This document shows, piece by piece, positions 30,688-38,550 of a stretch of 64,000 nt of DNA; position 1 is the first letter of the stretch; each line of letters starts with the position of its first letter. A program made the translations under genes and the position numbers. The notes below the pieces were generated by a model, which did not search any database, was not told where the DNA came from, and saw only the letters and a list, made by a program, of their open reading frames with translations. Origin of the DNA: Tateyamaria omphalii (lineage in GTDB: Bacteria; Pseudomonadota; Alphaproteobacteria; Rhodobacterales; Rhodobacteraceae); contig NZ_JAHVHT010000003.1 in assembly GCF_019802125.1 (NCBI RefSeq), positions 124,001-188,000 of the forward strand. Reading direction: 5' to 3'.

Positions 30688-32427
30688 CTATTTGGTACCA
30701 TGCCCATCTGGCGACCTTGAAAGCTGCGTCCAGGCGTCGAACTGAGACAGGAAGACCCGTCCGTTTAGGTTCGTGATGAAATGTGACCGTTTGAGGCGAT
30801 CCATAACCGGGCCTTTGACCTCAGACAAATGCAAGCCCACGCGCATGTCCTTTAGACGATGGTTGATGGCTTCGAAGCATTCCAGTGCCGAATAGTCGAT
30901 TTCGTTTATCGCCGAACACATCAAGACAACGTTTCTGACCTCGGACCCTTCGGTGACACGTGTCTGGATCAGATCCTCCAGAAAACGGGCGTTCACGAAA
31001 AACAGGCTCTCATCCACACGCAAGCTGACCAACGCCGGATCGGTTTCAACTGAGTGACGATGTATGTTCCGAAAGTGTTCGGTGCCGGGCACCCGACCGA
31101 CCTCGGCCACATGAGGGCGCGACGTCTTGTGGAGGTGCAGCAGCACGGATATCGCCACGCCGGAGGCAACACCCACTTCTACGCCAAGGCCCAGCGTCAA
31201 CAGGATTGTGGCGGTCACCGCAATGAAGTCCGCGCGACTGTATGCCCAAGTCCTTCTGAGGATCGAAACATCCACAAGCGACAGCACCGCCACGATGATC
31301 GTCGCCGCCAGCGTGGCGGTTGGGAGGTAGTACACCAATGGCGTCAAAGCTACGGCTGCCACAGCCAAGCCGATAGCGGTATACGCACCGGCAGCCGGTG
31401 TTTCGGCCCCTGCGTCAGAATTGACGACCGAACGCGCAAAACCGCCGGTGACCGGATAGCCACCCGTAAAGGCGGCGCCGAGGTTGGCCGCACCGAGCCC
31501 GATCAGTTCCTGATCCGGGTCGATGCGCTGACGTTTTTTGGCAGCAAGCGTTTGCGCAACGGACACGGATTCCACGAACCCGATGATCGAGATCAGGAGT
31601 GCCGGCATCAATAGCGCGCTGACCAGTTCAAGTTCAAAGTTGGGCAGGGTCAGTGGTGGCAGGCTCCTTGGAACCGTCCCCACGATCTTGACGCCTTGAT
31701 CGGCAAGGTCAAACGCCCACACGCCAACTGTGGTCGCCACAACTGCAGCCACCGGCCCAACCTTGATGGCGACATCTGCAACTTTTGGGCGGATGCCTAA
31801 ACGCATCAGCGTTTGCCGCAAGCCGTTGCGCACCCAAAGGAGAAAAGAAGTTGCGGCCAAGCCTATGGCAAGGGTGATCAAGTTTGTATCGCTCAGGTGT
31901 AAAAATAGCGACGCCAGCATTTCAGGCAGGGTGTGTCCGTGCGCTGGCACACCCAGAATGTGCTTCAGTTGGCTTGTGGCGATCAGAATGCCCGACGCAG
32001 CGACAAAGCCCGCGATGACAGGGTGGCTGAGGAAATTGGCCAGGAAACCCAACCGGAAGACGCCCATCAGCAATAGAATGGCGCCCGACAAAGAGGCCAG
32101 TGTCAGGGCAGCAGCGGCATAGCCCGCTGTTCCTTGTTCCGCGACCTGTCCGATTGCGGACGCGGTCAAAAGTGACACCACGGCCACCGGGCCAACCGCG
32201 AGTGCGCGGCTCGTTCCGAAAATCGCATAGAGCAGGATCGGTGCAATTGACGCGTAAAGGCCCGCTTCGGGCGGAAGGCCGGCCAACATGGCATAGGCAA
32301 GACTTTGCGGGATCAGCATGATCGTCACGATCACGGCTGCGATCATGTCACTGGAAAACGCTTCACGGTTGTAGGTTCGGCCCCAATCAAGCACGGGCAT
32401 GTAGCGGCGCAGGCTGTCAATCATCAT
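30688..32427 (-). CDS. SulP family anion transporter with STAS domain
   Basis: This 579-residue transporter for sulfate, bicarbonate or related anions starts with the SulP signature (AVIVTIMLIPQSLAYAMLAGLPPEAGLYAS), has about ten to twelve membrane segments, and ends in a cytoplasmic STAS domain (about 440-560; CSAINEIDYSALE). Its place at the end of a sulfide/persulfide operon suggests that it exports or imports sulfate or sulfite, the end products of sulfide oxidation. It starts 100 bp after the DUF442-SQR stop, so it may have its own promoter. Confidence 0.93.
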   Translation of the reverse strand: MMIDSLRRYMPVLDWGRTYNREAFSSDMIAAVIVTIMLIPQSLAYAMLAGLPPEAGLYASIAPILLYAIFGTSRALAVGPVAVVSLLTASAIGQVAEQGTAGYAAAALTLASLSGAILLLMGVFRLGFLANFLSHPVIAGFVAASGILIATSQLKHILGVPAHGHTLPEMLASLFLHLSDTNLITLAIGLAATSFLLWVRNGLRQTLMRLGIRPKVADVAIKVGPVAAVVATTVGVWAFDLADQGVKIVGTVPRSLPPLTLPNFELELVSALLMPALLISIIGFVESVSVAQTLAAKKRQRIDPDQELIGLGAANLGAAFTGGYPVTGGFARSVVNSDAGAETPAAGAYTAIGLAVAAVALTPLVYYLPTATLAATIIVAVLSLVDVSILRRTWAYSRADFIAVTATILLTLGLGVEVGVASGVAISVLLHLHKTSRPHVAEVGRVPGTEHFRNIHRHSVETDPALVSLRVDESLFFVNARFLEDLIQTRVTEGSEVRNVVLMCSAINEIDYSALECFEAINHRLKDMRVGLHLSEVKGPVMDRLKRSHFITNLNGRVFLSQFDAWTQLSRSPDGHGTK

Positions 32428-32527: not shown

Positions 32528-34207
32528 CTATTCAGCCGCGACCTTCAGTTTTTCCGGTTTGGCCATCCATTCCTTCCCCTTGAGCATTGCTTTCCAATAG
32601 ATCGGCGGCAGCATACGCTCCTTGAGAAACCACGCGAGGCGCGTGGGCTTGGTGCCATCCAGCATCGCCGCCGGGAAACTCGGCTTCAGAACACCACCAT
32701 AGCCAAATTCGGCCAGAACGATCTTGCCGCGCTCCACGGTCAGGGGACACGAACCATAGCCGTCATAGGCTGCGGTGGGTGAGCGGCCGGAGATGTCGGC
32801 TACGATGTTCTCGGCCACCGTTGGTGCCTGTTTGCGCGCGGCCGCTGCGGTCTTGGCGTTGGGCGCGTTCATGACGTCGCCAAGGCTCCAGATGTTGTCA
32901 TGGCTTGCATGGCGCAGCGTTGCCTGATCCACATCGACCCAGCCGGCGGCATCGGCCAGGGGAGAGACCCGGATGAAATCCGGAGCAACCTGCGGTGGGC
33001 AGACATGCAGCATGTCGAAGTCGACGGTTGTGCTCTCAGGTTCTGTGTCCGGCTTGGCGATCCTGAACGTCGCTGTTTTCGCAACGCCATCCACCGAGAC
33101 CAGGTTGTGAAAGAAGTTGAGCGTCGCGTCGTACTTGTCGACGTATCGTTCAAGCGCAGGCACGTAATCCTTTACGCCGAACAACACGCCACCCGCATTC
33201 ATGAACTGTATGTCGATGTCCTTCAGGCGACCGTTGCGGACCCACGCATCACCAGACAGGTACATCGCTTTTTGCGGCGCGCCTGCGCATTTGATCGGCA
33301 TCGGCGGCTGGGTGAAGATCGCACGACCTTCCTTCAGCTCTTGCACGAGCTGCCAGGTATAGGGGGCAAGGTCGTATCGGTAGTTCGACGTCACGCCATT
33401 GCGGCCCAGCGTGTCTTCCAGACCTTCAACCGCTTCCCAATCCAGTTTTAGACCGGGGCAGACGACCAGCCGGTCGTACTTCACCACACGGCACCCATCC
33501 AGGATCACCGCATTGTCTGCAGGCTCGAACGCAGCCACGGCAGCTTGGATCCACCTCACCCCGCGCGGAATGAGGGACCCCATTGTCTTGGCGGTTTGAC
33601 TGGCTTCAAAGATACCGCCGCCGACCATCGTCCAACCGGGTTGATAGTAGTGGATGTCAGCCGGGTCGATGATCGCGATCGACACGTTCGATGTTCGAGC
33701 CTGCAGACTGGCGGCAACGGCCACGCCTCCGGCCCCGCCGCCAACGATCACGACGTCGTACTTTGCATCGCCCATGTCCGTCGGAGTTTTGCCGCCATTG
33801 GCAATCCGCCTGGCAACACCGTTCATATCATATCCGGCGGCTTTCGTGGCGGCGAGAATCTCGGGTATCGGGCGCTTCTTGCTCTCGTGAAAGGACCACA
33901 AGGTGGCAGAGCGTGTACCGGTCCGACAATAGGCGAGCACTGGGCGCGGCACGTCGTCAAGTGCGGCGCCAAAAGCAGCGACATCCGCATCCTTCACCAT
34001 GCCGGTTTGCACCGGTACGTAGGCCGTCTTGATGTCCATGGCCTGCGCAGCCGCATCAATCTCTTCAAAGCTGGGCTGATCAGCGCCTTCGCCATCCGGG
34101 CGGTTGCATATGATGGCTCGAAATCCGGCTTCCCTGATCGCTGGCAGATCCTGCGCCGTGATCTGAGGGCTGACGGACGTCTTTTCTGTAATTCTCCTGA
34201 TATCCAT
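32528..34207 (-). CDS. Fusion of a DUF442 phosphatase-like/sulfur transferase domain with sulfide:quinone oxidoreductase-like flavoprotein
   Basis: The 559-residue protein has two parts. Residues 1-110 are a DUF442 (TIGR01244-type) domain with a PTP-like P-loop Cys94 in CRTGTRS. From about 148 a FAD Rossmann motif VVIVGGGAGGVAVAASL begins an SQR-like flavoprotein, with YYQPGWTMVGGG, KCAGAPQKAMYLSGD and HVCPP, whose cysteines are the likely redox pair. It would oxidise sulfide to persulfide and pass electrons to quinone; the fused domain may carry the sulfur onward. It lies 10 bp after the persulfide-dioxygenase-like gene in the operon. Confidence 0.9.
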   Translation of the reverse strand: MDIRRITEKTSVSPQITAQDLPAIREAGFRAIICNRPDGEGADQPSFEEIDAAAQAMDIKTAYVPVQTGMVKDADVAAFGAALDDVPRPVLAYCRTGTRSATLWSFHESKKRPIPEILAATKAAGYDMNGVARRIANGGKTPTDMGDAKYDVVIVGGGAGGVAVAASLQARTSNVSIAIIDPADIHYYQPGWTMVGGGIFEASQTAKTMGSLIPRGVRWIQAAVAAFEPADNAVILDGCRVVKYDRLVVCPGLKLDWEAVEGLEDTLGRNGVTSNYRYDLAPYTWQLVQELKEGRAIFTQPPMPIKCAGAPQKAMYLSGDAWVRNGRLKDIDIQFMNAGGVLFGVKDYVPALERYVDKYDATLNFFHNLVSVDGVAKTATFRIAKPDTEPESTTVDFDMLHVCPPQVAPDFIRVSPLADAAGWVDVDQATLRHASHDNIWSLGDVMNAPNAKTAAAARKQAPTVAENIVADISGRSPTAAYDGYGSCPLTVERGKIVLAEFGYGGVLKPSFPAAMLDGTKPTRLAWFLKERMLPPIYWKAMLKGKEWMAKPEKLKVAAE

Positions 34208-34217
34208 CTGCCCGACC

Positions 34218-35099
34218 TCAAAGACCGTTTACGGGCACTTTGAGCATTGGCTTGCCGTCCTTGTCGGTCGGCACCTCGCCTGCGCGCATGTTCACCTGCA
34301 AAGAAGGAATGATCAGTTTGGGCATCGCCAATTGGGCGTCCCGCTCGGTTCGGAACTTGACGAAGTCGTCCTTTGACTTGCCGCCGCCCACATGGATGTT
34401 GTGTGCCTTCTCCTCGCCAACGGTCGTCTCCCAGGCAATGTCGCGGCCGTTCGGTCCGTAGTCGTGGCACATGAACAGGCGCATATCGTCGGGCAAGCTC
34501 AGAACCTTCTGGATGCTGTCGTAAAGAACACCGGCATCACCGCCCGGGAAATCGGCCCGGGCAGAACCGCCATCGGGCATAAACAGGGTGTCGCCGGTGA
34601 ATGCCGCGTTGCCCATGACATGGACCATGCAGGCGGGGGTATGTCCCGGCGTATACATGGCAAAAGCCTGCATATTGCCGATTGTGTAGGTGTCACCATC
34701 CTCGAAAAGCGCATCGAACTGAGAGCCGTCGCGCTGGAATTCGGTGCCTTCGTTGAAGACTTTTCCGAACGTGTCCTGCACCACCATGATCTTCGATCCG
34801 ATGCCGATCTGACCGCCCAGCTTTTGCTGAATGTATGGGGCCGCGCTCAGGTGGTCGGCATGGACATGGGTTTCGATGATCCATTCCAGCGTCAAACCCC
34901 GGGTTTCGATCTGTTGGATCAAGGTATCGGCATGTTCGTATGTGATCCGCCCGGCGGCGTAATCTATGTCCATCACGCTATCAACGATGGCACAAGCACT
35001 CGATGTCGGATCTTTGACGATGTAGCTGATCGTATTCGTGGTCTCGTCAAAGAACGCTTGCACGTCAGGTTTGACGGACATGTTGACGGGGTAAGTCAT
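34218..35099 (-). CDS. MBL-fold persulfide dioxygenase-like protein (Blh/ETHE1 type)
   Basis: This 293-residue metallo-beta-lactamase-fold enzyme has the metal motif His78-x-His80-x-Asp82-His83 (THVHADH), YTPGHTPACMVH, FTGDTLF and CHDYGPNGRD, all typical of Blh/ETHE1-related persulfide dioxygenases that oxidise glutathione persulfide to sulfite. The start at 35099 follows GGAGGAGAAAAG. It sits between the Pmp-like permeases and the DUF442-SQR gene, the same set as in known bigR operons, but here no ArsR-type BigR is present. Confidence 0.92.
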   Translation of the reverse strand: MTYPVNMSVKPDVQAFFDETTNTISYIVKDPTSSACAIVDSVMDIDYAAGRITYEHADTLIQQIETRGLTLEWIIETHVHADHLSAAPYIQQKLGGQIGIGSKIMVVQDTFGKVFNEGTEFQRDGSQFDALFEDGDTYTIGNMQAFAMYTPGHTPACMVHVMGNAAFTGDTLFMPDGGSARADFPGGDAGVLYDSIQKVLSLPDDMRLFMCHDYGPNGRDIAWETTVGEEKAHNIHVGGGKSKDDFVKFRTERDAQLAMPKLIIPSLQVNMRAGEVPTDKDGKPMLKVPVNGL

Positions 35100-35125: not shown

Positions 35126-35554
35126 TCAGGATGTGGCCTTTGCCGGGTCGCCATGCCAAAGGCGACGCAGGTAGAAACCGCCCGTGACGGACACCAAAAA
35201 CAGGGCAACTTCCCACCGGCCGGTGCCAAGCGCCGGGATGGCCGCGCCCGGGCAGAAGCCTGCGATGCCCCAACCGACACCGAACAGGGCCGAGCCTCCG
35301 ACCAGTCTGGCGTCAATATTGCTTGTGGTAGGGACCTGAAATCGCGCTTCGAACAACGGCGCCTTTCGGCGCCACACCAGCCGGTATCCGATGAAAGTGA
35401 CGATCAAGGCACCACCCATGACGAACGCCAAGCTGGGGTCCCAGGTACCGGCCAAGTCAAAGAAGTTCAGCACTTTGGCCGGGTCCATCATCCCGGACAG
35501 GGCAATGCCTGTGCCAAACACCAAACCGGTCAGAAGGGCAAATAGATGCTTCAT
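35126..35554 (-). CDS. YeeE/YedE (DUF6691, PmpB-like) membrane protein
   Basis: This 142-residue membrane protein forms half of a YeeE/YedE-type sulfur-compound channel. The family signatures GLVFGTGIALSGMMDPAKVLNFFDLAG (first repeat) and GVGWGIAGFCPGAAIPALGTG (second repeat, with the conserved Cys) are present. YeeE-type proteins move thiosulfate or other small sulfur species. It starts 1 bp after the PmpA-like stop, so the two halves are made together and probably assemble. Confidence 0.92.
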   Translation of the reverse strand: MKHLFALLTGLVFGTGIALSGMMDPAKVLNFFDLAGTWDPSLAFVMGGALIVTFIGYRLVWRRKAPLFEARFQVPTTSNIDARLVGGSALFGVGWGIAGFCPGAAIPALGTGRWEVALFLVSVTGGFYLRRLWHGDPAKATS

Positions 35555-35555
35555 A

Positions 35556-35987
35556 TCAGGCTCCCAGGGCGTGGCGGATCACGAAGACGGTGATCGCGGC
35601 TGTCAGCATGAAGGTGGGCACGGCAACAAGCGAACGGACCGACAGGCGCGAAAGGCCACAAACCCCATGGCCGGATGTGCAGCCGGACCCCAGGCTCGCA
35701 CCGAATCCGACGATAACGCCACCAACGACAATCATGGCCGGGCTTACGGGAACGGTGAGCGCTGGCATCGCTCCGGTCACAGCAAAGATCAGGATGGGAG
35801 AGAGCACCATGCCAAGGACGACGGCCAGCCGCCATGACATCTCCTCCCGGGCTTCTGCGAAAATCGTGCCTGACAGAATGCCCGTCGCCCCGAAGATGCG
35901 CCCGAGGCCAAGCATCAGGAGAACGGCGCCAAGACCGATCATCAGACCGCCACCAAACGAGGCAAAGGGTGTGAACTCTGTTTCCAT
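35556..35987 (-). CDS. YeeE/YedE (PmpA-like) membrane protein
   Basis: This 143-residue membrane protein is the partner half of the YeeE-type channel. It has four hydrophobic segments and the signature FGASLGSGCTSGHGVCGLSRLSVRS with the two conserved Cys that handle the sulfur substrate. ATG at 35987 (METEF) is preceded by AAGGAG. That ribosome binding site overlaps the last codons of the microprotein at 35992-36087, so translation of the two is probably coupled. Confidence 0.92.
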   Translation of the reverse strand: METEFTPFASFGGGLMIGLGAVLLMLGLGRIFGATGILSGTIFAEAREEMSWRLAVVLGMVLSPILIFAVTGAMPALTVPVSPAMIVVGGVIVGFGASLGSGCTSGHGVCGLSRLSVRSLVAVPTFMLTAAITVFVIRHALGA

Positions 35988-35991
35988 CACC

Positions 35992-36087
35992 CTACTCCTT
36001 GCCGTTTTCACGGTCTGAGATCGTGTACGTCACGAAGGCCATCACGGCGCAATGAGTGCAATCACGGGTTCCGGCATTGGCAGCCAT
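35992..36087 (-). CDS. Unannotated 31-residue CxxC microprotein at the head of the sulfur operon
   Basis: A frame of 31 codons runs from ATG 36085-36087 to TAG 35992-35994. The peptide begins MAANAGTRDCTHCAVMAFV and ends ENGKE. GGGAGAAC lies 6-7 nt before the ATG, and the stop is 4 bp before the pmpA-like start. The DCTHC motif is a compact thiol/metal pair of the kind used to carry sulfur or bind Zn or Fe. I know no family that it matches. It is too short for ordinary gene calling. It could instead be a leader peptide whose translation sets pmpA expression. Confidence 0.6.
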   Translation of the reverse strand: MAANAGTRDCTHCAVMAFVTYTISDRENGKE

Positions 36088-36089
36088 CT

Positions 36090-36118
36090 TGTTCTCCCAT
36101 CCAATGACTTGGAGAACA
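36090..36118 (-). promoter_or_regulatory. Inverted repeat that would bury the microprotein ribosome binding site
   Basis: TGTTCTCC and GGAGAACA are exact 8-bp arms 13 nt apart. In the leftward transcript the second arm is the Shine-Dalgarno of the 31-residue gene, 2 nt before its ATG, so a folded leader would block translation. As DNA it could also be a protein-binding site just downstream of the promoter. Confidence 0.45.
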
Positions 36119-36140
36119 GATATAACTTTGGTCCCACGCC

Positions 36141-36162
36141 TTCAGTGACATTGTCACCCAAC
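36141..36162 (-). promoter_or_regulatory. 22-bp near-palindromic operator, copy 1 (sulfur operon)
   Basis: The core is GTGACA-n-TGTCAC with outer TT..AA pairs. The exact reverse complement of these 22 bp recurs at 37357-37378. In the leftward direction a TTATAT -10-like box lies at 36125-36120, which puts the operator centre near -38, an activator-like position. Candidate binders are the adjacent Crp/Fnr or Rrf2 proteins. Confidence 0.78.
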
Positions 36163-36179
36163 ATGCAAAAACTTGAATG

Positions 36180-36842
36180 CTAATCGGCCGCGGCAATATC
36201 GCGGAGCGCGGGTTTGTCGAGCAGGGCTATGCGGCCGCGGGACTGCGCGATCAACTCCCGTTTCTGGAAGTCCTGCAAAATGCGGCTGACGACTTCACGT
36301 GCGGTGCCAAGCTCACTTGCCAGATGCTGGTGCGTTGCGGAGACCTCTTTGAAGTCACCGGCGAGCGCAAGAAGACGCGCCGCCAGCCGCACATCCATCT
36401 GTCCAAAAGCAACATCATCAACGACGCGCAGCAGATCAATCAAACGCCGGGAATATGCAGCAAAGACAAACGCGCGAAATGCATCTTCTTCGGCCACGAG
36501 ACGATCAAACGCTGCTTTAGGCAGCGCTATCGCGGTGATGTCCGTCTCTGCTATGCCCTCGGCGTTGTATGCTTCTTCCGCCAGCATGCAAGCTGTTGTG
36601 AGAACGCAGCTTTCGCCTGCATCCACACGATAGAGTACAATGTCTCGCCCGACGTCAGAGCGTTGAACGACGCGGATACGTCCTTCGTATAGAAAGAAAA
36701 GGCTGTCCGGCACATTCAGTGGGCCAAAGACCTGCGTCCCTTCTGCCATGTGAGTTATGCGGGCAACCTTGAGCAACCTGTCGCGGACCGCGCGGGGCAG
36801 CTGGGCAGTGCCCTGGAAACGTTCTGTCCAGTCCCCGATCAT
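36180..36842 (-). CDS. Crp/Fnr family transcriptional regulator
   Basis: This 220-residue regulator has an N-terminal cyclic-nucleotide-binding-like beta-roll (about 20-120) and a C-terminal winged helix with ATHQHLASELGTAREVVSRILQDFQKRELIAQSRGRIALLD. The recognition helix has E-x-x-S-R (REVVSR), as in Crp and Fnr. There is no Fnr-style N-terminal Cys cluster, so it is not an obvious Fe-S sensor; Cys82 in ESCVLTTACML could sense redox or persulfide. ATG at 36842 overlaps the Rrf2 stop. It is encoded just upstream of the sulfur operon. Confidence 0.92.
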   Translation of the reverse strand: MIGDWTERFQGTAQLPRAVRDRLLKVARITHMAEGTQVFGPLNVPDSLFFLYEGRIRVVQRSDVGRDIVLYRVDAGESCVLTTACMLAEEAYNAEGIAETDITAIALPKAAFDRLVAEEDAFRAFVFAAYSRRLIDLLRVVDDVAFGQMDVRLAARLLALAGDFKEVSATHQHLASELGTAREVVSRILQDFQKRELIAQSRGRIALLDKPALRDIAAAD

Positions 36843-37309
36843 CGTGCTTTGCGTACCGGTGCGACAATACCCTCTTCCAATGGTGCGATACGCGCCAACA
36901 GATCGCTTCGGTTGGAAGCTATGTCGGCCAGTGTAAGGTCGTCGAGCACCGCCATGAATGCCTGTGTCGCCTCTCGAAGGGCTCGGGACAACTTGCATAT
37001 GCCGATGAGGGGGCAGGTGTTGCTGTCCGGGTTGAAACATTCGACAACGGTCAGCGGCCCCTCGGTCAAGCGGACAACATCGCCGATAATGATGTCTTCG
37101 GCAGGCCTTGCCAGGCGAAAACCGCCATGTCGGCCACGATGGGTGACCACATATCCTGCCAAACCCAGTTCATGCACGATCTTCACGATATGAGGGCGCG
37201 CAAGACCATGCACCCGTACAACGTCGTCAACACGGATCAGATCCGGGGTTTTCAGCGCCGCCAGTTGCAAGGATCGCAGAGCGAAATTCGTATAGGATTT
37301 CAGTTTCAA
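36839..37309 (-). CDS. Rrf2 family regulator with three-Cys (NsrR-like) cluster motif
   Basis: This 156-residue regulator has an Rrf2 winged helix (KSYTNFALRSLQLAAL, then VHGLARPHIVKIVHELGLAGYVVTHRGRHGGFRLAR) and Cys91, Cys99 and Cys105 in CFNPDSNTCPLIGIC, the three-Cys Fe-S binding pattern of NsrR-type proteins (sensing NO or related oxidants). The start must be TTG at 37309, since no ATG fits and MKLKSYT is the normal beginning; a rare start may keep its level low. The stop overlaps the Crp/Fnr start, so both regulators are made together. Confidence 0.92.
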   Translation of the reverse strand: MKLKSYTNFALRSLQLAALKTPDLIRVDDVVRVHGLARPHIVKIVHELGLAGYVVTHRGRHGGFRLARPAEDIIIGDVVRLTEGPLTVVECFNPDSNTCPLIGICKLSRALREATQAFMAVLDDLTLADIASNRSDLLARIAPLEEGIVAPVRKAR

Positions 37310-37356
37310 ATGACGACCCGGATTTAAAATTACATGCTGAATATATCTTTTTTGAG

Positions 37357-37378
37357 GTTGGGTGACAATGTCACTGAA
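37357..37378 (+). promoter_or_regulatory. 22-bp near-palindromic operator, copy 2 (peroxiredoxin-DsrE operon)
   Basis: This is identical over 22 bp to the site at 36141-36162 when each is read towards its downstream operon. It lies 51 bp before the peroxiredoxin ATG, with a CATCTT -10-like box at 37392. It also lies 47 bp upstream of the divergent rrf2 start, so it may control the regulator pair too. Confidence 0.78.
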
Positions 37379-37429
37379 CTGCCCACGGGATCATCTTAGC
37401 TGAAGTTGGCACATCCGAAGGAGAGCTGC

Positions 37430-38068
37430 ATGACACTTCTGCTTGGCGACACCGTTCCCGACTTCAAGGCGGACACCACGACCGGTCCGATTTCCTTTCA
37501 CGACTGGATTGGCACGGATTGGGTATTCTTCTTCAGTCATCCGGCTGATTTCACCCCTGTTTGCACAACCGAGATGGGCCGGACCGCGCAGTTGGCGGAA
37601 GACTTCGTGCAACGCGGTATGAAGCCGATTGGCCTGAGCACAGATGGTGTTGAAGAACACCTGAAGTGGATCGAAGACGTCAACGACACCCAGAATACGA
37701 CACTTCGGTTTCCCATTGTCGCTGATCCGGAGTTCAGGATCGCAAAGCTCTACGAGATGATCCACCCCGGAGAGGCGCAAAATGCGGCCGTTCGCTCCGT
37801 ATTCATCATCGACCCTGACAAGAAGCTTCGCCTGTCGATGACCTATCCGATGAGCGTCGGGCGCAACTTTGATGAAGTGCTGCGTGTCATTGATGCCTTG
37901 CAGACGGGGGATGCCAAGGGCGTGGCCCTGCCAGCCGATTGGCGTCCGGGTGACCGCGCAATCATTCCGCCGTCACTGTCGGACGAAGAGGCCTTGGTGA
38001 AGTTTCCTCAGGGTTTTGAGACCACCCGATCCTACCTGCGCACCGTGGATCTGGGGGGCGAGCAGTGA
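37430..38068 (+). CDS. 1-Cys peroxiredoxin (Prx6 type)
   Basis: This 212-residue thiol peroxidase has Cys45 in SHPADFTPVCTTEMG and the Prx6-type C-terminal domain (YPMSVGRNFDEVLRVIDALQ, then FPQGFETTRSYLR). No resolving Cys is evident, as expected for a 1-Cys enzyme. Such enzymes reduce hydrogen peroxide or lipid hydroperoxides, and can reduce persulfides in sulfur-stressed cells. AAGGAGA lies 7 nt before ATG 37430. The operator copy 2 precedes it, and a DsrE-like gene follows. Confidence 0.95.
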   Translation: MTLLLGDTVPDFKADTTTGPISFHDWIGTDWVFFFSHPADFTPVCTTEMGRTAQLAEDFVQRGMKPIGLSTDGVEEHLKWIEDVNDTQNTTLRFPIVADPEFRIAKLYEMIHPGEAQNAAVRSVFIIDPDKKLRLSMTYPMSVGRNFDEVLRVIDALQTGDAKGVALPADWRPGDRAIIPPSLSDEEALVKFPQGFETTRSYLRTVDLGGEQ

Positions 38069-38118
38069 AACGAGATACTCCAAGCCCGCGCAAGACCACC
38101 ACTCAGGAGAAGAAACTG

Positions 38119-38550
38119 ATGAAAAAGGCCGTGTTTGCATTTGCCTCTGCACTTGGGCTGGCTGCGCCAGCACTTGCCGAAGATGTGCCGACCCTCGTTA
38201 CCATTCTATCGTCGGACGAACCGCAGACCCAACTGATGAGCATGGTATTGACCATGCAGTCGATCCAGCAGGGATCTAACGCACATGTATTGCTGTGCGG
38301 CCCTGCCGGTGATCTTGCCCTTAAGGAAGCGCCCGCTTCGGCAACCGCGCCGCAAGAGCCGCGCGGCGTGAGCCCGCAGGGACTGATGCAAAACATCATG
38401 GAAAGCGGCGCCAAGGTCGAAGTCTGTGCACTCTACCTACCGAACAAAGGTGTGGGTGCAGACGCGCTGCTGGACGGGGTCACAGCAGCCAAGCCAAATG
38501 AAATGGCGGCCCGCATGCTGGCTCCGAACACGCGGATCATGTCGCAATAG
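38119..38550 (+). CDS. Exported DsrE-like protein
   Basis: This 143-residue protein has a signal peptide (1-21, APALA-EDV) and a DsrE/F-like fold: VTILSSDEPQTQLMSMVLTMQ, HVLLCGPAGDLAL and VEVCALYLPNKG. DsrE-type proteins carry sulfur on cysteine; Cys in LLCGP and VCALY are the candidates here. A periplasmic location is unusual for sulfurtransferases but recurs in small DsrE-like exported proteins. AGGAGA precedes ATG 38119. It is cotranscribed with the peroxiredoxin under operator copy 2, so it belongs to the sulfur regulon. Confidence 0.85.
   Translation: MKKAVFAFASALGLAAPALAEDVPTLVTILSSDEPQTQLMSMVLTMQSIQQGSNAHVLLCGPAGDLALKEAPASATAPQEPRGVSPQGLMQNIMESGAKVEVCALYLPNKGVGADALLDGVTAAKPNEMAARMLAPNTRIMSQ

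Follow-up and report, generated by a model that had tools for sequence, protein, structure and literature searches.

The ArsR-family repressors BigR, SqrR and PigS control operons for sulfide detoxification, and their targets overlap with the genes considered here, which presumably serve to remove toxic sulfide, in SQR and a Blh-type dioxygenase. In this study we analysed a 64,000-nucleotide stretch of the Tateyamaria omphalii genome (NZ_JAHVHT010000003.1, positions 124,001 to 188,000; hereafter the window), in which a sulfur operon with genes of this kind and a divergent peroxiredoxin gene are each preceded by one copy of a 22 base pair (bp) site with a palindromic core, and in which genes for a Crp/Fnr-family and an Rrf2-family regulator lie between the two copies. 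The names Pmp, SQR, Blh, DUF442, DUF2892, YeeE/YedE and CydA are in part labels that we take to apply. In agreement with a first-pass annotation of the window, which had a Crp/Fnr and NsrR-like pair replacing an ArsR repressor, this pair stands where the ArsR-type BigR or SqrR stands in known systems, and a Pfam scan of ten proteins, confined to the cluster, detected no ArsR-family repressor among them. The locus possibly shares with SqrR and BigR the two-cysteine sensing described for those proteins (PMC9774590). It differs from the BigR, SqrR and PigS systems, however, in its use of Crp/Fnr and Rrf2 proteins, in a proposed activation at -41 combined with a proposed block of the -10 region, and in its operator.

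Class II Crp/Fnr activator sites centre near -41.5. FNR and Dnr promoters of this class resemble the present ones in the Crp/Fnr fold of the regulator and in a palindrome at about -41, and the sites given for Dinoroseobacter shibae include TTGAC-N4-GTTAA and, at -41.5, TTAAC-N4-GTCAA (PMC5398030); here, however, the half-sites are GTGAC, their spacing is mostly three nucleotides (N3), with N4 in 5/101 loci, and the regulator has no N-terminal iron-sulfur (Fe-S) cysteines. NsrR, whose 23-bp operator consists of a pair of 11-bp inverted repeats separated by 1 bp (PMC4432287), is similar to the Rrf2 protein of the window in this operator layout, in its three cysteines and by a structure match (5n07), although the window protein has Asn8 in place of the Asp8 of 5n07, a C-x7-C-x5-C arrangement, sulfur genes as targets and a score below the curated NsrR cut-off. 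RedB of Rhodobacter capsulatus likewise belongs to a Crp/Fnr subgroup in the Rhodobacteraceae (PMC9603854), but was rejected as the same regulator on the basis of its motif from chromatin immunoprecipitation sequencing, a non-palindromic AT-rich 12-mer (PMC9603854). FisR would be comparable as an activator with cysteine-based sensing of reactive sulfur species, but is of the Fis family, and the reactive-sulfur sensors named in the available part of the same review are CstR, SqrR/BigR/PigS, FisR, OxyR, LasR and OhrR, with no Crp/Fnr protein among them (PMC9774590). Our literature searches, which covered titles and abstracts, with partial coverage of subscription papers and a chance that spellings with a slash or colon escape, brought up no description that we recognised of the operator or of the regulator pair. 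We rate the regulator folds and the target genes as known, the pairing and the promoter logic as new, and the operator spacing as unusual.

Association of the palindrome with the Crp/Fnr regulator

Judged by comparison across genomes, the palindrome GTGAC-N3-GTCAC belongs with the Crp/Fnr protein and not with Rrf2, which provides an answer to a question that the first-pass annotation had left open. The Crp/Fnr protein was matched at E 1e-25 in 143 of 296 genomes of the family. We took 100 loci, comprising all listed matches of at least 48% identity and 19 of the 68 more distant ones listed (further ones exist; the 19 include the source genome's own crp paralog), together with 62 named loci, and with the window added and identical crp ends removed this gave 153 loci. 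The region searched for sites began 40 bp before the crp stop and extended 350 bp past it. Loci are called without Rrf2 when there is no intact copy beside crp; two such genomes (G029 and G076) carry one elsewhere, as found by a search of the family set, with the named genomes outside that search.

An N3 site within one mismatch was present in 106 of the 116 loci with PmpA or Blh at most 1.5 kb behind crp, irrespective of Rrf2 (71/79 loci without an intact adjacent Rrf2 gene and 35/37 with one). Likewise, on a tree of the Crp proteins the N3 site showed no association with Rrf2, and a close Rrf2 (E 1e-40) was found in 18 of the 296 genomes only. Peroxiredoxin genes of more than 60% identity had a site within one mismatch at 23 of 25 loci. 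The full motif TNNGTGACNNNGTCACNGA was present in 62 of the 143 genomes with a Crp match compared with 12 of the 153 without (Fisher p 6e-13), and counted strand-wise it has 99 places in the 296 genomes, with 9 for the reversed control. Its 87 distinct places comprised 45 no more than 2 kb from a listed Crp match and 42 elsewhere, and among 12 of the latter, chosen by eye for inspection, four (L261, L262, L264 and L265, in genomes G154, G202, G222 and G235) preceded Pmp or Blh operons located on different contigs from the crp-like match, so the link between motif and Crp is not one of mere neighbourhood; the crp-like match is distant (37-38%) in G202 and G235. A phylum-wide draw gave a match in 67 of 348 genomes. 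Of 27 further loci inspected, including four from the family, 15 had the N3 site within one mismatch (12/23 outside the family) and none had N4; a DUF2892-like gene lay behind the site in 12 of the 15.

With respect to spacing, N3 sites within one mismatch were found in 12/14, 52/68 and 13/19 loci of three Crp identity groups, with about 0-1 in a Markov control, while N1, N2, N5 and N6 were near the control. Among the 62 named loci, 32 had exact N3 sites and 22 had one mismatch. N4 sites within one mismatch were above background, at 1/14, 4/68 and 5/19 (10/101 loci in total), but most of those beyond the loci with N4 at the usual place carry an N3 site in addition to a stray N4 match further on. 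From these counts we regard N3 as the rule and N4 as a minority natural variant. The oddness of the half-site spacing remarked upon in the first-pass annotation therefore stands in so far as it is mostly one bp shorter than in Fnr/Dnr operators (N3 rather than N4, as in both window sites), and fails for the 5/101 loci with N4.

In the window itself, GTTGGGTGACAATGTCACTGAA occurs once on each strand, and the two copies are exact reverse complements with 22/22 identity, oriented alike relative to the sulfur operon and the peroxiredoxin gene, just as the first-pass annotation had it. Palindromy is confined to the GTGACA-n-TGTCAC part, and an alignment of 70 sites gave a conserved TnnGTGACa(a/t)nGTCACnGA with variable outer bases, so part of the 22/22 match reflects local identity. 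The 13-bp core GTGACANTGTCAC has two places in the 4,487,944-bp genome, both of them the window sites (one in a reversed-pattern control), and the fuller consensus TNNGTGACNNNGTCACNGA is likewise found at these two only. The looser GTGACNNNGTCAC has 12 places (control: 1), and of the ten outside the window eight are within open frames of at least 110 amino acids, one (C1:1675704) is directly 3' of a second crp/fnr-like gene and one (C5:240552) is intergenic between frames. Random occurrence across the genome and a lack of conservation before orthologous operons, both named earlier as grounds for doubt, are countered respectively by these genome counts and by the 106/116 loci given above.

A second Crp/Fnr paralog (G000:C1:1675731-1676273; L083, L135) with 41% identity is likewise accompanied by an exact N3 site and by a DUF2892-like gene. 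Because of that site, cross-talk between two Crp/Fnr regulators sharing one operator type is possible.

Promoter geometry

Across the 70 aligned sites a TA is conserved at the first base of a -10 region 29 bp from the site centre, with A favoured 12 bp further on. Of 123 operon sites, 89 carry this TA at index 35/36 (other indices average 5.4), as do 18 of 23 peroxiredoxin sites (0.6 at other indices). Taking the TA as -12/-11 places the site centre at about -41 relative to the predicted start, and not, as noted earlier, at about -38 from a -10-like box. This centre near -41.5 with a -10 at fixed distance agrees with a class II promoter, the start being predicted, and we infer that the site occupies the position of a class II activator. 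We also considered, and rejected, a -35 element TTGTCA within the site for rrf2; it suits the window sequence but not relatives with differing middle bases.

A candidate Rrf2 operator

The comparison further indicates that Rrf2 has its own operator over the operon -10 and before rrf2-crp, giving two operators in all. An inverted repeat AASWTATA-N7-TATAWSTT was found 5' of rrf2 within three mismatches in 36/42 loci, with a mean of 2.0 mismatches at gap 7 compared with 4.1-5.6 at the other gaps in the range 2-11, and this box has the 23-bp, 11-1-11 inverted-repeat layout of an NsrR operator. When a matrix of the rrf2 sites was applied to operon promoters, scores exceeded the 99th background percentile in 33/37 loci with Rrf2 and 4/93 without, and almost all of the best-listed operon boxes shared a single position over the -10. 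When loci with Rrf2 fragments were treated separately and the threshold was 5, the operon box was present in 32/36 loci with Rrf2 and 2/88 without. On a FastTree Crp tree, ten well-supported independent pairs differed in Rrf2, and the box changed in the same way in about eight and in the opposite way in none (median p ~0.008); these tree counts omit the six loci with Rrf2 fragments (G_L073, L190, L200, L207, L221 and L226) and one of the 153 loci whose Crp row is broken, short or unplaced. The half-site far from the -10 was present at one exact index in 23/36 loci with Rrf2 and 4/88 without (0-2 at shifted indices), and since this distal half-site also tracks Rrf2, the strength of the -10 does not explain the association. 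By comparison, 23 site-bearing peroxiredoxin promoters contained no convincing Rrf2 box, the best score being 2.7 where the 99th background percentile is 2.0 and rrf2 instances score 16-35. The single operator described in the first-pass annotation before both arms is consequently correct for the palindrome, but overlooks this second box at the operon and at rrf2-crp.

Two loci, L253 (G109) and L251 (G029), have a Pmp/Blh operon beside Rrf2 with an Rrf2 box and no crp nearby; no exact Crp site was found at either operon, and these are apparently an Rrf2-only version of the control. Rrf2 copies with an internal TGA are present at G222:C106:187676-188119 and G261:C1:555038-555502, and no Rrf2 box with a score higher than 8 is seen at the G222 operon (L264), which would fit an ongoing loss of Rrf2 there.

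Regulator proteins

The Crp/Fnr protein matches PF13545 (59.7 bits) and PF00027 (41 bits), and its listed top fold matches are of the Crp/Fnr family, which places it in the superfamily; its score against the NCBIfam CRP equivalog is 44 bits with a cut-off of 266. The cysteines of the N-terminal FNR cluster are lacking, and the only two cysteines, Cys79 and Cys85, fall within the stretch GESCVLTTAC of the cNMP domain. Of 101 homologues, 100 have Cys79, and Cys85 occurs in 75/82 members of groups 1-2 and in 6/19 members of group 3. A solved relative, 3dv8 (a putative regulator by its title), is the best match by sequence and the second by fold, with both cysteines in the aligned stretch. An AlphaFold model had a mean predicted local distance difference test score of 81.5 and a predicted template modelling score of 0.56, with scores of 68 and 52 at residues 71-90, where cysteine placement is unreliable. 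It is plausible, judging by these residues, that the protein senses persulfide via a pocket Cys79, often together with Cys85.

The Rrf2 protein matches Pfam Rrf2 with 100.9 bits and has the three cluster cysteines of NsrR by sequence, Cys91 being conserved in 40/41 and Cys99 and Cys105 each in 41/41 sequences; Asn8 is present in 40/41. Scores are below the NCBIfam cut-offs for both NsrR (115.4 bits compared with 182) and RirA (120 compared with 193), and the nearest solved structure is NsrR 5n07 (E 2.4e-20).

Genes of the cluster

The coordinates of all features are given in Table 1. The rrf2 and crp genes are both on the minus strand between the two sites, with the end of rrf2 overlapping the start of crp by 4 bp. 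In 40/44 relatives compared by eye the first slot of the operon holds a protein of ~70 amino acids, which we recognised by eye and take to be of DUF2892 type. PmpA lies 193 bp from crp in the window and ~310 bp from it in near relatives, and Tateyamaria sp. ANG-S1 (L173; 95% identity in Crp), the closest of the named relatives, has a first slot shortened likewise. The 31-residue open reading frame in this slot, termed a CxxC gene in the first-pass annotation, is probably instead the remnant of a DUF2892-type gene, with the operon persisting without its usual first gene.

The BLH_phosphatase (DUF442) domain is joined to SQR in the window, unlike in Blh, where it is joined to the dioxygenase, and in several relatives it is a short separate match. 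The small protein behind the peroxiredoxin, previously called DsrE, matched no Pfam family at E 0.001, and its NCBIfam match was weak (20.5 bits, cut-off 109.85). In five loci (L185, L186, L189, L211 and L234) the peroxiredoxin gene is decayed or lost, and the next long divergent frame past the conserved site, 5' of rrf2, is a cytochrome bd-type oxidase gene, CydA/CioA-like by eye. Oxidases of this type are known to tolerate sulfide.

Table 1. Features of the sulfur cluster in the T. omphalii window, in order of position.
Feature	Position	Strand	Basis
SulP permease, cluster end	30688..32427	-	Pfam
BLH_phosphatase (DUF442) and type III SQR-like oxidoreductase fusion	32528..34207	-	domain and family profile matches
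Persulfide dioxygenase-like metallo-beta-lactamase (dioxygenase part of Blh)	34218..35099	-	NF040641, 366.1 bits, model positions 138-422, cut-off 625
PmpB-like YeeE/YedE protein	35126..35554	-	Pfam DUF6691
PmpA-like YeeE/YedE protein	35556..35987	-	Pfam Sulf_transp
Open reading frame, 31 amino acids, probable DUF2892-type gene remnant	35992..36087	-	spacing and relatives; likeness of start by eye
Candidate Rrf2 box over -10 of sulfur operon	36106..36128	-	weak: 3 mismatches, position weight matrix score 8.0
Predicted -10 region, sulfur operon (TATATCTG)	36117..36124	-	sequence; conserved TA
Crp/Fnr-linked operator of sulfur operon	36141..36162	-	sequence; core GTGACAATGTCAC at 36145-36157; centre ~-41
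Crp/Fnr-family regulator, 220 amino acids, proposed activator	36180..36842	-	Pfam HTH_Crp_2, cNMP_binding; Cys79 and Cys85 in cNMP domain; recognition helix AREVVSR
Rrf2-family regulator, NsrR/RirA-like, proposed repressor	36839..37309	-	three conserved Cys
Rrf2 box 5' of rrf2 (proposed autoregulation)	37327..37349	-	2 mismatches, position weight matrix score 25.5
Crp/Fnr-linked operator of peroxiredoxin and DsrE-like gene; also just 5' of rrf2-crp	37357..37378	+	core at 37362-37374
Predicted -10 region, peroxiredoxin promoter (TAGCTG)	37397..37402	+	sequence; conserved TA
1-Cys-type peroxiredoxin	37430..38068	+	Pfam, NCBIfam
Small protein with signal-peptide-like start ("DsrE" earlier)	38065..38550	+	no Pfam family at E 0.001

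Discussion

We consider it likely that the Crp/Fnr protein is a class II activator acting on the palindrome and Rrf2 a repressor acting on the separate box, such that the operon is doubly controlled. The positions of site and box, and the regulator that each follows, come from the comparison of loci, and from these we infer binding, activation and repression. The Crp/Fnr protein, on GTGAC-N3-GTCAC at about -41, would bring RNA polymerase to two operons, DUF2892/Pmp/Blh/SQR/SulP and that of peroxiredoxin, while the NsrR-like Rrf2, on its 23-bp box, would repress the sulfur operon from over the -10 and also its own gene. Full firing of the operon would require an active Crp/Fnr protein and release of Rrf2, and the peroxiredoxin promoter, at which no Rrf2 box was seen, would require Crp/Fnr alone. 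As to the signals, the target genes and cysteines make persulfide the leading guess for Crp/Fnr, which may read sulfide-derived persulfide by Cys79 (plus Cys85 where present), and Rrf2 may read redox, nitric oxide (NO) or iron via an Fe-S cluster. The peroxiredoxin could possibly serve in thiol peroxide defence or in sulfane-sulfur reduction; PrxI of Synechococcus PCC7002 reduces S8 (PMC9774590).

Several observations weigh against this assignment. Five loci (L070, L087, L110, L128 and L129) have N4 at the usual place with no N3 site, ten of the 116 sulfur-gene loci have no N3 site, and two peroxiredoxin loci (L076 and L100) have Rrf2 and no Crp site. Twelve genomes have the motif TNNGTGACNNNGTCACNGA and no Crp match, and eight of the 12 inspected places away from crp are not before a Pmp/Blh operon; by eye, one of these precedes a DUF2892-like frame (L266) and one an AhpD/CMD-like frame (L269), and no clear target was seen at the other six (L258, L259, L260, L263, L267 and L268). 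In the distant Crp homologues across the phylum Cys79 is retained, and Cys85 is absent from the majority of the non-family sequences. For Rrf2, the window's own operon box is weak (Table 1), four Rrf2-bearing loci have no operon box and two loci without an adjacent Rrf2 have one. Within three mismatches, the box pattern has 17 places in the source genome, fewer than the 47 in the reversed control, and a single genome is therefore insufficient to define the Rrf2 regulon genome-wide.

The strongest alternative retains the same wiring in what is primarily an NO, oxygen or iron regulon, with sulfide incidental and the NsrR-like protein a true NO sensor. This seems to us rather unlikely; the nearest solved structure, the NsrR-type 23-bp 11-1-11 box and the conservation of Cys91, Cys99 and Cys105 all speak for it, but the Rrf2 protein misses both the NsrR and RirA cut-offs of NCBIfam, and the boxes that were found precede Pmp/Blh/SQR operons and rrf2, a weak point of the argument in that the wider regulon was not searched. 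It is quite improbable that the Crp/Fnr protein instead represses from the palindrome by covering the -35 and is released by persulfide, in the manner of the ArsR-type BigR/SqrR. The site does overlap the -35 region of both promoters, and crp lies beside its targets, as do many repressor genes, yet the fixed distance to the -10 (TA in 89/123) is needed by an activator at -41 and not by a repressor, the 70-site consensus shows by eye nothing TTGACA-like at -35 besides the site, and Rrf2 would already block the -10 where present. That the palindrome is the operator of Rrf2, with Crp/Fnr acting elsewhere, is very unlikely indeed; rrf2 does lie between both window sites, but the site persists in the loci without an intact adjacent Rrf2 (a few of whose genomes, G029 and G076, have one elsewhere), close Rrf2 proteins are rare, Rrf2 has a box of its own, and we rejected Rrf2 as owner of the palindrome given the independence of the two on the tree and in the locus counts. 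Hairpins (terminators) or a repeated element, suggested by the copy just 3' of crp, can be dismissed as having almost no chance of being right, given copies before operons on other contigs, the constant spacing to a -10, the presence of just two full copies in the genome, the position of the second copy between divergent genes, and the lack of a T-run behind the site.

Returning to activation by Crp/Fnr with repression by Rrf2, a broader reading, which we put forward tentatively and hold to be somewhat short of probable, is that of a widespread, so far undescribed Crp/Fnr subfamily that would sense sulfide-derived persulfide by cysteines (Cys79, often also Cys85) in the former cyclic-nucleotide pocket, bind a palindrome usually one bp shorter than other Crp/Fnr sites and activate a DUF2892/sulfur-oxidation module across Pseudomonadota. 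Some Rhodobacteraceae would combine it with an Fe-S Rrf2 repressor at the -10, such that two chemically different sensors must agree for sulfide oxidation to be turned on. With its mostly shortened spacing and few natural N4 versions, the operator is a suitable case in which to study how Crp/Fnr dimers accommodate the distance between half-sites. Rrf2 and its -10 box have repeatedly been gained or lost jointly, which amounts to a natural experiment on how combined promoter control evolves. If true, a Crp/Fnr activator of this kind would be another route of reactive-sulfur sensing, and could explain the control of sulfide oxidation in those Rhodobacteraceae that carry the cluster.

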